In this document: positions 1-7,131 of the stretch, in pieces | Layout: every line of letters starts with the position of its first letter | How positions within the stretch are numbered: the stretch's first letter is position 1 | Origin: a virus | Reading direction: 5' to 3' (one strand) | Virus record (IMG/VR): IMGVR_UViG_3300043540_000945 | Span: 1-37,100 of that record | DNA length: 37,100 bases | Program-made: the position numbers and the translations under genes | The notes under the pieces: model-generated | Databases searched by the model: none | Seen by the model: the letters and a program-made list of their open reading frames with translations, nothing else | What the model was told of the DNA's origin: nothing

Positions 1-1236
1 ATGGCTAAAGTAGCATCCCTTGTACGGTACGCAAATCTACCGGGTCACGGCTGGCGTCGTGGCACCCTCATTCAATCCAAGAACGGTCGCATAAAGGATG
101 GCTGGATGCTCTACAACGGCACTGAGTTCGAGTGCCCGGATGGAACCTACCAGATTCGCCAGTACGACGGTGGCAAAGCGAAGTACACCAGCGTCGGCAA
201 CGACCTCGAACAGGCTCAGGCGGTACTCGACCAGCTTCAGGCGAAGGTACAGTACCAAGAGCTTGAAGTTAAGCTTGGGGTAAAGCTGCCCAACACTCCA
301 AAAGCCCCGGTGAAGACGCTGACCACCCTCCGTGAGGCGTTCACCAAGAAATATGCTCACGGCTCCTCCGACACCATCTACAACTACACCGAAATCCCCA
401 AGGAGTTCGTGAAGCTGATGACGGCTGCGGAGAAGACCACGCCCGACCAGTTGACCGAGGACGATGTGATTGCCTTCGACCGCCACTTGGAGTCGCTCGG
501 CAACTCGAAGACGACCCGCTCCGGTCGCTACGTCACCCTCCGCTGCTTCCTCCGCTACTGCGGTCTCGACCTCCAGAAACTCATCAGCCCGGAGTGGAAC
601 CTGAAGCTGAAGAAGAAGCCGAAGCTCGAAGTCGAGAACTACTCCGAGGAGGAGTTGACCAAGTTGTACGCTGCCTCGTCCGAGCGTCACCGCCTCATCT
701 GGATGACCTACCGAATGCTCGGTCTGCGTGAGGAAGAGTTGGCGTTCGCCGAGTGGGCTGACGTGGACTTGGAGAATGGCATCTGGACGGTTCGCTTCAA
801 GCCAAAGGGCAGCTACGATTGGAACCCCGAACTGGAGTGGAAGTCGAAGGACTCCGAAGAGCGTGACATCCCGATTCCGGCGAAGCTGCTGGACGAACTC
901 AAAGCTCTGCGGAAGTACAACAAGTCCGCTCGTTTCGTGTTTCCCACCCGTGGCGGTCGTCCGGACATCAAGCTGTTAAAGGCACTGAAGAGCGACTGGC
1001 GTGAAGCAGGTCTCAACTGCGGCCACTGCCGTGGATGCGTTGAGCGTGGCGAGTGCTCGAAGGCGAAGATTAAGACTTTCAGAAGCACCTACCTGACCAC
1101 GATGCTTCGCCACTGCAAGTCGAGCCGTGACGTACAACGTCTGGCTGGTCACTCCTCGCTGACCACGACGGAGCGTTACCTTCGTCCTGCTGGGATGGAG
1201 AGCCTACAGGCAGCAGCGAACGCTGCCTTCGCCTAG
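1..1236 (+). CDS. int: Tyrosine recombinase (phage integrase)
   Basis: Site-specific recombinase expected to integrate and excise the phage. The 411-residue protein has an N-terminal arm-binding-like region, a SAM-like core-binding domain (about 105-200) and a C-terminal catalytic domain. Catalytic candidates are R243 (in GLREEEL), a lysine near 281-283, R361 (in KTFR, where the usual first histidine of HxxR is a lysine), H384 (in LAGHSS) and nucleophile Y393 (in ERYLRP). A cluster C340-x2-C343-x2-C346-x5-C352 sits just before the R361 motif and could bind a metal; from memory, similar inserts occur in acidobacterial integrases. The window begins at the ATG, so its promoter is not visible. 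Its TAG overlaps the TAG of the opposing gene in the palindrome CTAG. Confidence 0.93.
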   Translation: MAKVASLVRYANLPGHGWRRGTLIQSKNGRIKDGWMLYNGTEFECPDGTYQIRQYDGGKAKYTSVGNDLEQAQAVLDQLQAKVQYQELEVKLGVKLPNTPKAPVKTLTTLREAFTKKYAHGSSDTIYNYTEIPKEFVKLMTAAEKTTPDQLTEDDVIAFDRHLESLGNSKTTRSGRYVTLRCFLRYCGLDLQKLISPEWNLKLKKKPKLEVENYSEEELTKLYAASSERHRLIWMTYRMLGLREEELAFAEWADVDLENGIWTVRFKPKGSYDWNPELEWKSKDSEERDIPIPAKLLDELKALRKYNKSARFVFPTRGGRPDIKLLKALKSDWREAGLNCGHCRGCVERGECSKAKIKTFRSTYLTTMLRHCKSSRDVQRLAGHSSLTTTERYLRPAGMESLQAAANAAFA

Positions 1237-1427
1237 AACTGACGGGAGCGTAACCACTCGGCGGTTGTCTTCGGGTTTAACCGAATGCAGCCGCCGATTC
1301 TTATTGCGGGGAGTTTCTTCTTGGATACGTAACGGTACAGGGTCTTAGTTGAGACCTGTGTGATGTCGGAAAGCTCCTCTACCGTGAGGCACCGACCCCA
1401 ACCCTCGACCTTTTCAATGATGTCCAC
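1233..1427 (-). CDS. Excisionase-like MerR/HTH_17 DNA-binding protein
   Basis: A 64-residue protein of the small excisionase or DNA-binding family. It reads LTVEELSDITQVSTKTLYRYVSKK followed by LPAIRIGGCIRLN and a final EWLRSRQ helix, the usual layout of a winged HTH_17 domain. It lies tail to tail with the integrase, so it probably controls integration direction. The start is GTG at 1427, placed directly after TATTAC-ATAGGT with no Shine-Dalgarno sequence, which suggests a leaderless message. An alternative role is a general small repressor. Confidence 0.75.
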   Translation of the reverse strand: MDIIEKVEGWGRCLTVEELSDITQVSTKTLYRYVSKKKLPAIRIGGCIRLNPKTTAEWLRSRQF

Positions 1428-1464
1428 ACCTATGTAATACCGAAGGAAAGGTGATTTTGGCCGG
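1428..1464 (-). promoter_or_regulatory. Class 2 promoter motif before the excisionase-like gene
   Basis: On the minus strand CCGGCCAAAA is followed after exactly 15 nt by TATTAC-ATAGGT and then the GTG start codon. The same arrangement with the same spacing occurs at 4864-4899 and 32458-32494. TATTAC would be a -10 box; taking GGCCAA as the upstream hexamer gives a 17-nt spacer. Confidence 0.65.
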
Positions 1465-1465
1465 A

Positions 1466-1498
1466 ATAAAAATGGGGGCGGTCATGTCAGCCGCCCCA
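1466..1498 (-). terminator. Rho-independent terminator, leftward
   Basis: On the minus strand GGGGCGG, a 9-nt loop and CCGCCCC form a strong stem, followed by CATTTTTATT. It lies about 40 nt downstream of a class 1 promoter motif with no coding frame between them, so it appears to end a short RNA. Confidence 0.75.
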
Positions 1499-1535
1499 CT
1501 TAGGAGAAACAGAAGATTTACACGTTCTGTCTACC
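1466..1535 (-). ncRNA. Candidate small RNA with anti-Shine-Dalgarno segment
   Basis: Leftward unit made of a class 1 promoter motif (1531-1563), a 5' hairpin (ACAGAA/TTCTGT, arms at 1525-1530 and 1509-1514), a linker reading TTTCTCCTAAG (1509-1499 on the minus strand) and a terminator. Length would be about 70 nt. No start codon with a useful frame lies inside. The linker is perfectly complementary over 11 nt to CTTAGGAGAAA at 7115-7125, the ribosome-binding site of the first rightward early gene, and over 10 nt to that of the leftward gene starting at 3361. Alternative reading: on the plus strand the same bases look like a hairpin plus Shine-Dalgarno leader with no ATG after it. Confidence 0.5.
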
Positions 1536-3220: not shown

Positions 3221-3361
3221 CTAGTTCACCTCGGTGTTGTCGTCATCCACATCAATCATGTAGTCGGGGTCGATGACGAACTGGTAGCGGGACAGGTTGT
3301 TGGTGTGGTTGGACTCGGAATCCATCAGGGTCAGGATGTCCTCTTGCGAATAGTTGCTCAT
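3221..3361 (-). CDS. First gene of the leftward operon, 46-residue acidic protein
   Basis: A short frame, MSNYSQEDILTLMDSESNHT and onward, ending in the strongly acidic tail DVDDDNTEVN. The ATG is preceded by CTTAGGAGAAG at good spacing and by a hairpin leader and class 1 promoter motif, so expression is well supported although no family is recognised. It may be an inhibitor or adaptor of a host protein, but this is a guess based only on size, charge and position. Confidence 0.7.
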   Translation of the reverse strand: MSNYSQEDILTLMDSESNHTNNLSRYQFVIDPDYMIDVDDDNTEVN

Positions 3362-3370
3362 AGTTTGCTT

Positions 3371-3397
3371 CTCCTAAGGAGGGCGTTCACACCCTCT
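3371..3397 (-). promoter_or_regulatory. Leader hairpin and ribosome-binding site of the leftward operon
   Basis: Just after the promoter motif the message folds as GAGGGTG-tgaa-CGCCCTC (arms 3390-3396 and 3379-3385), then reads CTTAGGAGAAG (AGGAG at 3371-3375). The rightward operon leader at 7100-7125 has the same layout with a different stem sequence. Confidence 0.6.
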
Positions 3398-3430
3398 CTA
3401 CCTATGGGTGTGATATTGCAAACTTTGCAC
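3398..3430 (-). promoter_or_regulatory. Class 1 promoter motif of the leftward operon
   Basis: Minus-strand match in 33-bp register: GTGC, 9 nt, AATATC, 6 nt, ATAGGTAG. It lies back to back with the rightward motif at 3469-3499, so the pair forms a divergent control region. Confidence 0.65.
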
Positions 3431-4010: not shown

Positions 4011-4208
4011 CTATAGGCTTAGCGGAATGAGGAACCCACCACCCTCGTCAGGAGCACCGTTCTTGAACGTGAACCACGGTAGCGGAGGCTGGAGCTTTCG
4101 TTGCCCAATGGTAGGCACCGTCACGTTATCCGCCCTGACATCTTGTTGTGGGTTCGGATTGAGCGTCGGATTCCGCTCCCTCATCCTTACGGGTAGAGGC
4201 ACCCACAT
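4011..4208 (-). CDS. Hypothetical small protein
   Basis: 65 residues, MWVPLPVRMRERNPTLNPNP and onward, proline- and asparagine-rich, ending GGGFLIPLSL. No family recognised. Support comes from position: its stop is followed at once by the hairpin terminator. Against it, there is no clear ribosome-binding site for the first ATG. An alternative start at residue 9 has AAGG only 2 nt before it. Confidence 0.4.
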   Translation of the reverse strand: MWVPLPVRMRERNPTLNPNPQQDVRADNVTVPTIGQRKLQPPLPWFTFKNGAPDEGGGFLIPLSL

Positions 4209-4832: not shown

Positions 4833-4863
4833 ACAAACTAATACTGAGAATTTCAAAATAATT

Positions 4864-4899
4864 CCGGCCAAAATCGACCCGCCCCCGGTATTACATAGG
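4864..4899 (+). promoter_or_regulatory. Class 2 promoter motif driving a second candidate small RNA
   Basis: CCGGCCAAAA (4864-4873), exactly 15 nt, TATTAC-ATAGGT (4889-4900). No plausible gene follows; a terminator ends 61 nt later. Confidence 0.6.
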
Positions 4900-4961
4900 T
4901 GTACACCCAATGTACAATCTCGTTAGCCACCCCGGCTCAGAGTGTAGAGCCGGGGTTTTTT
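4899..4961 (+). ncRNA. Candidate small RNA, about 60 nt
   Basis: The short unit between the class 2 motif and a textbook terminator contains a 5' hairpin, TGTACA-cccaa-TGTACA (4900-4916), then a single-stranded linker (AATCTCGTTAGCCA) and the terminator hairpin. The layout (5' hairpin, linker, terminator) matches the candidate RNA at 1466-1535. No clear target found. Confidence 0.5.
4930..4961 (+). terminator. Rho-independent terminator, rightward
   Basis: CCCCGGCTC, 8-nt loop, GAGCCGGGG, then six T. Perfect 9-bp GC-rich stem. There is no rightward gene upstream within reach except the candidate small RNA. Confidence 0.9.
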
Positions 4962-5169: not shown

Positions 5170-5204
5170 TGCGGCATCGGTTCAAACTTGCGGGTCTCGG
5201 TCAT
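5127..5204 (-). CDS. Possible 25-residue ORF coupled to the replication-like gene
   Basis: MTETRKFEPMPQWGLYPIKS then NWTKR. The ATG overlaps the stop of the upstream gene (ATGA), the usual sign of coupling in this phage. No function can be assigned. Confidence 0.35.
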   Translation of the reverse strand: MTETRKFEPMPQWGLYPIKSNWTKR

Positions 5205-5713
5205 AACGCATCCACCTCGGGGTCGAACGTCCGCTTAGGCTCATCCAACTCGTCTTCCTCGACCTCAAACACCTTGCGGGTGACTTTACGAGCGGAGGTC
5301 GGCATCGGCGTCGGAATATCAACCTCATCAACAGCGGGAGCTTTGGACTTCTTCTTGAGGTTGGACAAGGCTTCGATGGCGGCTACCTGCTCAGGCGTAT
5401 ACCCGGCGAGGACGCAGCAACGCTCCCAGTTCAGGTGGTAGCGGTTGGATACGGTACGGGAACCCGGCTCCTTCTCCAACAGGCGGAGCTTAATCAGGAC
5501 GGTGACGGCATCAATCGCTTGCGACTTGGAGGGCAAGGCGGCATCCCGCTGGATACGCTGGTAGGACGGCCAGCAGACGTTCTCTTCGTTCAGGCGATGG
5601 GCGATGGCGGTCAGCACCTGCTTCTCGGTGCAGCCGAAGACAAGCTCTTCCTCGTCTACCGTCTCCTTGAAGCGGGGCATGGCGAACACGACATCAGTGA
5701 ATCGGTTGGCCAT
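5201..5713 (-). CDS. Winged-helix protein resembling replication initiators
   Basis: 170 residues. The N-terminal 100 residues (VLTAIAHRLNEENVCWPSYQ, RIQRDAALPSKSQAIDAVTV, LIKLRLLEKE and SNRYHLN) match the HTH_36-type winged helix found in phage O-like and plasmid Rep-like initiators. The C-terminal half is acidic and proline-rich and probably disordered, possibly a docking tail for a host helicase. It is the only replication-like gene in the window and its operon starts next to a palindromic iteron array, so an origin-binding role is the best guess. A transcription regulator is the main alternative. The start has AGGAG 8 nt upstream. Confidence 0.6.
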   Translation of the reverse strand: MANRFTDVVFAMPRFKETVDEEELVFGCTEKQVLTAIAHRLNEENVCWPSYQRIQRDAALPSKSQAIDAVTVLIKLRLLEKEPGSRTVSNRYHLNWERCCVLAGYTPEQVAAIEALSNLKKKSKAPAVDEVDIPTPMPTSARKVTRKVFEVEEDELDEPKRTFDPEVDAL

Positions 5714-6028: not shown

Positions 6029-6185
6029 GTGGTAGCTATACACTACCACTAGGTGTTGTGGTAGCTATTTACTACCGGGGTGGTAGCTGGGGACTACCAC
6101 GTGGTAGCTATTTACGACCACGTAGTAGCTATTGACTACCACGTGGTAGCTATTTACTACCGGGGTGGTAGTGCGGGGCTACTCT
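6029..6185. repeat. Palindromic iteron array, about 21-bp period
   Basis: Unit GTGGTAG-N7-CTACCAC with N7 usually CTATTTA. Copies begin at 6029, 6058, 6080, 6101, 6122 and 6143, with a degenerate copy at 6165. Successive spacings are 29, 22, 21, 21, 21 and 22, close to two helical turns, so bound proteins would line up on one face. Typical of a replication origin, partition site or operator cluster. Confidence 0.85.
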
Positions 6186-6823: not shown

Positions 6824-7080
6824 AGCACCCCGCATAATGCGTATGCCCCCGCCAATTAACGCTGCCCCCGCCCGTCTCAGCGTAGCTGAGGTCGGCGACT
6901 CCTCCTTCTTCCACGATATGTGCGGGTTCTAGGCTGTGAGGGGGCAGGGCAAGGGACTCCTTTTATGGATTTAGACCGGGGGTAGGCTCCCCCCGGCGTT
7001 CTCGTCCGGCTGCTAGGCCATGACCGCATAAGCTAATTTCGATAATTCGTAAGCGCAACCTCACTCCAACCACTTTCTCG

Positions 7081-7125
7081 TCTACCTAGCCCTTAGGTAG
7101 AGCGGTTCCCGCTCCTTAGGAGAAA
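7081..7125 (+). promoter_or_regulatory. Partial class 1 promoter motif and leader of the rightward operon
   Basis: TCTACC, 6 nt, TTAGGTAG (7081-7100) matches the downstream half of the class 1 motif; the upstream GCGY box is not in register. A hairpin GAGCGG-ttc-CCGCTC (7100-7114) follows, then CTTAGGAGAAA (7115-7125) as ribosome-binding site for ATG 7132. Confidence 0.55.
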
Positions 7126-7131
7126 GTAACC

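Follow-up and report, generated by a model that had tools for sequence, protein, structure and literature searches.

A possible short antisense RNA facing the leaders of two operons in a temperate phage with a probable acidobacterial host

The DNA analysed here (the window) is a stretch of 37,100 nucleotides from an IMG/VR virus record, and it comes from a temperate phage of soil type that is known from uncultured material. Its host is likely acidobacterial, because the integrase and the xis product are 60 and 65% identical to copies in a Terriglobia MAG; xis is also 58-65% identical to its copies in two relatives, L003 and L005. A protein family scan found the left arm to be rich in HTH proteins; those of 3473, 5718 and 2243 are HTH proteins of the phage. 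Iteron-like repeats (GTGGTAGCTATTTACTACC, 6029-6180) adjoin the O-like replication gene, and another set of repeats occupies the matching place in L003, which is a relative by its int gene. Several genes of the long rightward operon are 62-77% identical, at the protein level, to genes of one other IMG/VR record (the sister record, with the pieces L004, L006 and L008). Conservation in L004 also covers the non-coding DNA upstream of this operon (6960-7066), AGCGCAACCTCACT included, and this DNA is likely the operon's control region. Three places are compared below: the unit at 1541-1466 on the minus strand (P1), the leader of the 3361 gene (P2) and the leader of the 7132 gene (P3). The positions of all features are collected in Table 1.

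Table 1. Genes and sequence features at the locus, with positions in the window
Feature	Position	Strand	Details
Virus record	37.1 kb window		IMGVR_UViG_3300043540_000945
Tyrosine integrase (int)	1-1236		
xis-like HTH_17 gene	1233-1427	minus	PF12728, 5.9e-12; start GTG 1427
int terminator	1260-1305	plus	
Intrinsic terminator of P1	1466-1497	minus	GGGGCGGCUGACAUGACCGCCCC-CAUUUUUAU; stem GGGGCGG...CCGCCCC
Linker of P1	1499-1509	minus	TTTCTCCTAAG (RNA form UUUCUCCUAAG); complementary to ribosome-binding sites
5' hairpin of candidate RNA	1509-1530	minus	ACAGAA...UUCUGU; predicted fold
12-mer box of P1	1530-1541	minus	CCCATAGGTAGA
Leftward set of small HTH genes	from 3361	minus	first gene 3221-3361
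P2 target	3366-3385	minus	ribosome-binding site of 3221-3361 gene
Box in P2 leader	3397-3408	minus	CCCATAGGTAGA
O-like replication gene	5201-5713	minus	
P3 leader self-structure	7072-7127	plus	ACUUUCUC (7072-7079) pairs with GAGAAAGU (7120-7127)
Box in P3 leader	7090-7101	plus	CCCTTAGGTAGA
P3 target	7115-7125	plus	CTTAGGAGAAA; ribosome-binding site of 7132 gene; 11 nt perfect complement
Long rightward operon	from 7132	plus	glycosyltransferase, terminase, SU10-type portal, major head and tail genes

Read from 1541 down to 1466, the unit consists of a box, a hairpin, a linker and an intrinsic terminator. It folds at -28.1 kcal/mol (z -3.46), that is, more stably than its shuffles, and the terminator (-15.3 kcal/mol, tail TTTTATT) ranks with the more stable of those hairpins in the window that are followed by a tail. 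No ORF of at least 40 aa starts within it. An earlier note on this DNA had described a hairpin, a linker and a terminator in a leftward unit without a gene, and this description was confirmed: at the level of sequence, we are dealing with a short, terminator-bearing RNA unit devoid of an ORF, and its product looks like an RNA of 60-76 bases which ends in the terminator. The promoter motif that had been placed in the same unit was not recovered. No sigma-70 type promoter was found on the minus strand between 1 and 9000 (other promoter types being beyond the scoring), the heads of the leftward and rightward operons are likewise without a recognisable one, and in the place of the supposed promoter stands the shared 12-mer CCCWTAGGTAGA, which may serve instead. 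The window holds exactly three copies of this box, each in leader sense, and the box probably serves the phage as an operator or promoter element. A T7-like phage RNA polymerase promoter was considered for the box, as CATAGGTAGA resembles TATAGGGAGA; this identity was rejected, since no phage RNA polymerase gene was found among the scanned proteins. Neither the whole window nor the unit gave a match to C4 or another phage antisense family of Rfam (E up to 10), and the curated and permissive thresholds returned weak chance matches only.

The exact sequence of the linker is present only in the unit itself and, again on the minus strand, at 7115-7125, and one copy with a single mismatch lies on the plus strand at 3368-3378; three copies are to be compared with a chance expectation of 0.48, and this number was reached by 1 of 100 shuffles. 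The 11-nt perfect antisense match to the 7132 leader, as claimed before, is therefore exact. The 10-nt perfect match to the ribosome-binding site of the 3361 gene holds too, and the pairing there proved stronger than had been claimed: 1492-1511 faces 3366-3385 with 17 Watson-Crick and 2 G-U pairs over 20 positions, 13 of the pairs, one of them G-U, being contiguous. By these predictions, the 3361 leader is a stronger pairing partner than the 7132 leader. When the linker region (37 nt) was hybridised with 45 leaders, the two leaders named in the earlier note ranked first and second, whereas in some settings the leaders of 5718, 1665 and 2797 equalled their scores. Dinucleotide shuffles of the linker matched the energy for the 3361 leader in 1 case per 1000, for the 7132 leader in 3 per 1000 and for both in 1 per 1000. 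Upon co-folding with the terminator kept intact and a 5' end at 1530, both scores were reached by 0.5% of shuffles and by 1 of 487 natural segments, while with a 5' end at 1541 the joint score was matched in 4% of shuffles. All of these chance tests of linker pairing are post hoc, and a perfect 11-nt match in antisense to one leader or another is present in about 2% of the 70-nt windows in the phage.

In the predicted complexes, the terminator of the RNA and the hairpin of the leader both remain folded, flanking a duplex of 11-13 bp. Once accessibility is charged, the opening of linker and targets consumes most of the pairing energy, leaving a net -4.65 kcal/mol for the pairing with the 3361 leader; the ribosome-site pairing in the 7132 leader drops from the best position, and simple shuffles reach the scores of the two leaders in 29 of 150 and 57 of 150 cases, respectively. 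Outside leaders, at least 12 windows of 60 nt in the genome form a stronger hybrid with the linker than the one predicted for the 3361 leader. The self-structure predicted for the 7132 leader implies that its ribosome site would already be closed in cis. It should also be mentioned that the two leaders are not independent targets, because their ribosome-binding sites resemble each other. On this evidence, a short terminated leftward RNA able to bind the two ribosome-binding sites is compatible with the sequence, and its match is perhaps somewhat better than chance: the hybridisation and co-folding shuffles speak for this, whereas accessibility and the competing leaders weaken it, and palindromy and kinship of the leaders confound it.

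The earlier note had considered that CTTAGGAGAAA, which is what the linker reads as on the plus strand, might serve a plus-strand message as a normal ribosome-binding site. We did find, by eye, an ATT in the start position 9 nt after its GGAG, and the same spacing precedes the ATG at 3361 and 7132, but the frame has 16 codons only and a plus-strand gene behind 1499-1509 was rejected. Given the int terminator, a plus-strand message running through this site is less likely, so that such use is not clearly seen.

As far as our searches reach, the unit appears in one genome only, and comparative support is absent. It is missing from L003 and L005, the relatives sharing int and xis, no homolog is present in the int relative G377, and no copy was returned by pattern scans of IMG/VR or when 399 Terriglobia genomes were searched at the DNA level. 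The one 22-nt Terriglobia match lies inside a coding region, TrbL-like by our reading of the protein, and was taken as chance. The sister record (23.5 kb, without the int region) keeps a 7132-type leader with a conserved SD and holds no complement of at least 9 nt to this site of its own, a weak negative since no integrase was seen in that record; CCCATAGGTAG, found there at 104-114, falls within coding sequence and was also taken as chance. Two further observations concern L006. A stretch of 25 nt a little upstream of the unit (1548-1572) matches L006 350-373 at 92% (TTTTCTTRCGCTGAATATTT), and the stretch at 4011-4150 on the minus strand looks, by eye, conserved in L006 220-335, although one of the phages has an interrupted reading frame there; it is possibly a structured RNA.

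Our tentative first choice is that the unit encodes a co-controlled short antisense RNA comparable to P22 sar or P1 c4, with the 3361 leader as its main target. In this scenario, the minus strand at about 1541-1466 would form a short transcription unit of its own in the temperate phage, placed under the same control box as is found ahead of the leftward and rightward operons. The RNA made from it would carry the hairpin, the anti-ribosome-site linker and the terminator, and the linker would invade the CUUAGGAGAA sites, primarily that of the 3361 leader and also that of the 7132 leader. Such pairing might block 30S binding and thus damp both operons during or after their switch-on. The best argument that the pairing may matter is that 1492-1511 is nearer to the 3361 leader in the antisense sense (17 of 20) than in the same sense.

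A close second, which we likewise consider possible at most, is that the unit is an ordinary operon end or attenuator and its complementarity incidental. The hairpin at 1497-1466 would stop leftward transcription, coming from the 3361 leader (and from the unit's own box, if this is a promoter), before it enters xis; read-through would limit or time xis expression, and the antisense match would arise incidentally from the repetition of a leader module. Between 3400 and 1497, the search for minus-strand terminators returned this hairpin alone, and xis starts about 40 nt beyond it in the same direction. Irrespective of any further role, the leftward operon may hence end at this terminator, or xis may be attenuated by it. 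A leftward message ending there could itself pair, by its 3' end, with its own 5' ribosome site. The idea of a repeated module is in agreement with the architecture of the unit and of both leaders, in which the 12-mer is followed by a hairpin and then by CTCCTWAG, all in the same sense; in the L004 leader a hairpin also stands ahead of CTWAG. The stem sequence differs in each case, and equally stable folds were given by 2.6% (the unit), 1.5% (3361 leader), 5.5% (7132 leader) and 2.8% (L004 leader) of spacer shuffles. Moreover, CTCCTAAG of the unit matches CTCCTTAG of the two leaders at 7 of 8 positions in the same sense, and since CTCCTTAGGAG, carried by both leaders, is near-palindromic, any copy in the same sense will, for the most part, be antisense as well. 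Kinship of the three leaders and this palindromy may thus explain part, perhaps much, of the antisense match. Against this second reading stand the antisense likeness of the unit to the 3361 leader, which exceeds the same-sense likeness of that stretch, and the repeated element that xis itself carries upstream, suggesting a separate promoter. An antisense RNA acting on both ribosome-binding sites, as the earlier note proposed, is a reading compatible with the sequence, weakened by the kinship of the modules, by the gene content of the 7132 operon and by the absence of comparative support.

An inverted 42-nt repeat (ATTCCGGCCAAAATC-N10-CGGTATTACATAGGTGT, 83%) is found in this neighbourhood. One copy (1426-1467, minus strand) abuts the xis start, and the other (4861-4902, plus strand) precedes a second gene-less unit, which is small-RNA-like, shares its box with a gene start and has a strong terminator at its end (4929-4956).

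It is unlikely, in our estimation, that only a DNA-level site is present, with CTACC-N9-GGTAG and CCCWTAGGTAGA together acting as a repressor operator at the two operon heads and beside a rightward promoter of the 1596 frame, and with no trans-acting RNA arising from 1541-1466. The left half-site CTACC completes the motif at the box of the unit, and the equal spacing of 19 bp at 1531-1549 and 7082-7100 (the box at 7090), with a half site at 3397, points to such an operator, as do the many HTH proteins of the left arm and a promoter-like pair, TTACGC-N18-TATACT, seen by eye on the rightward strand at about 1558-1587. An operator would, however, leave the terminator and the linker unexplained, and the box is not conserved at the homologous position of the L004 leader. 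The small ORF at 1596-1800 on the plus strand, as judged by reading the sequence, apparently changes frame near 1700, where seven G stand in a row, and continues in the other frame as MSEATREKLRKIAKARWAERKKAAKGKKGAK; this is possibly an assembly slip or a frameshift, and neither half has a family match. Finally, the box and hairpin being in the same sense as in the leaders, the RNA could be a decoy that mimics them and titrates a protein binding there, which we regard as very improbable, as the box may lie outside the transcript and we know of no protein here that binds a box plus hairpin of this kind.

Returning to the antisense RNA, we consider its widest version quite unlikely, namely that one control box drives two operons together with a small RNA antisense to both of their ribosome-binding sites, making up a feed-forward brake which links the leftward and rightward operons of this probable acidobacterial temperate phage. 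It also needs to be mentioned that the earlier note spoke of two early operons and of lysis-lysogeny control; since the 7132 operon leads into terminase, portal and capsid (major head) genes, both descriptions are conjectural. What stood of the original observation are the sequence elements, the folds and the complementarity, while the promoter did not. If the antisense reading is true, one short RNA of the phage, induced together with its targets, would hold down the leading genes of two separate operons by covering their ribosome-binding sites, and control of the sar and c4 kind would extend to a phage group with probable Acidobacteriota hosts, for which we found no described small RNA. One linker and two leaders would then make a simple two-target test system, open to compensatory changes.

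We do not claim membership in the kind of sar and c4 for the candidate, because it lacks both a recognisable promoter and a match to any described RNA family and is known at the sequence level; by analogy, it would work as they do. Its predicted size of 60-76 nt matches that of sar (68/69 nt), c4 and OOP (both 77 nt; PMC12197685). OOP of lambda is likewise a phage RNA lowering early gene expression (PMC12197685), but its gene lies opposite cII and its pairing is in cis, whereas the pairing of the candidate would be short and in trans. Attenuator RNAs and those derived from 3' ends share with it a terminator placed upstream of a co-directional gene, here xis, and differ in that the candidate has an anti-ribosome-site linker and a box common to other operon heads. 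The c4 antisense RNA of phages P1 and P7 resembles it as a phage RNA directed, in trans, against a ribosome-binding site (PMC12197685), although the candidate does not match the Rfam C4 family and no antirepressor gene was identified among its targets. In sar of phage P22, a phage RNA of about 70 nt base-pairs with an mRNA of the phage and hinders the initiation of translation (PMC12197685); sar has a single target, ant, while the candidate would face two unlinked leaders with a short match to each.
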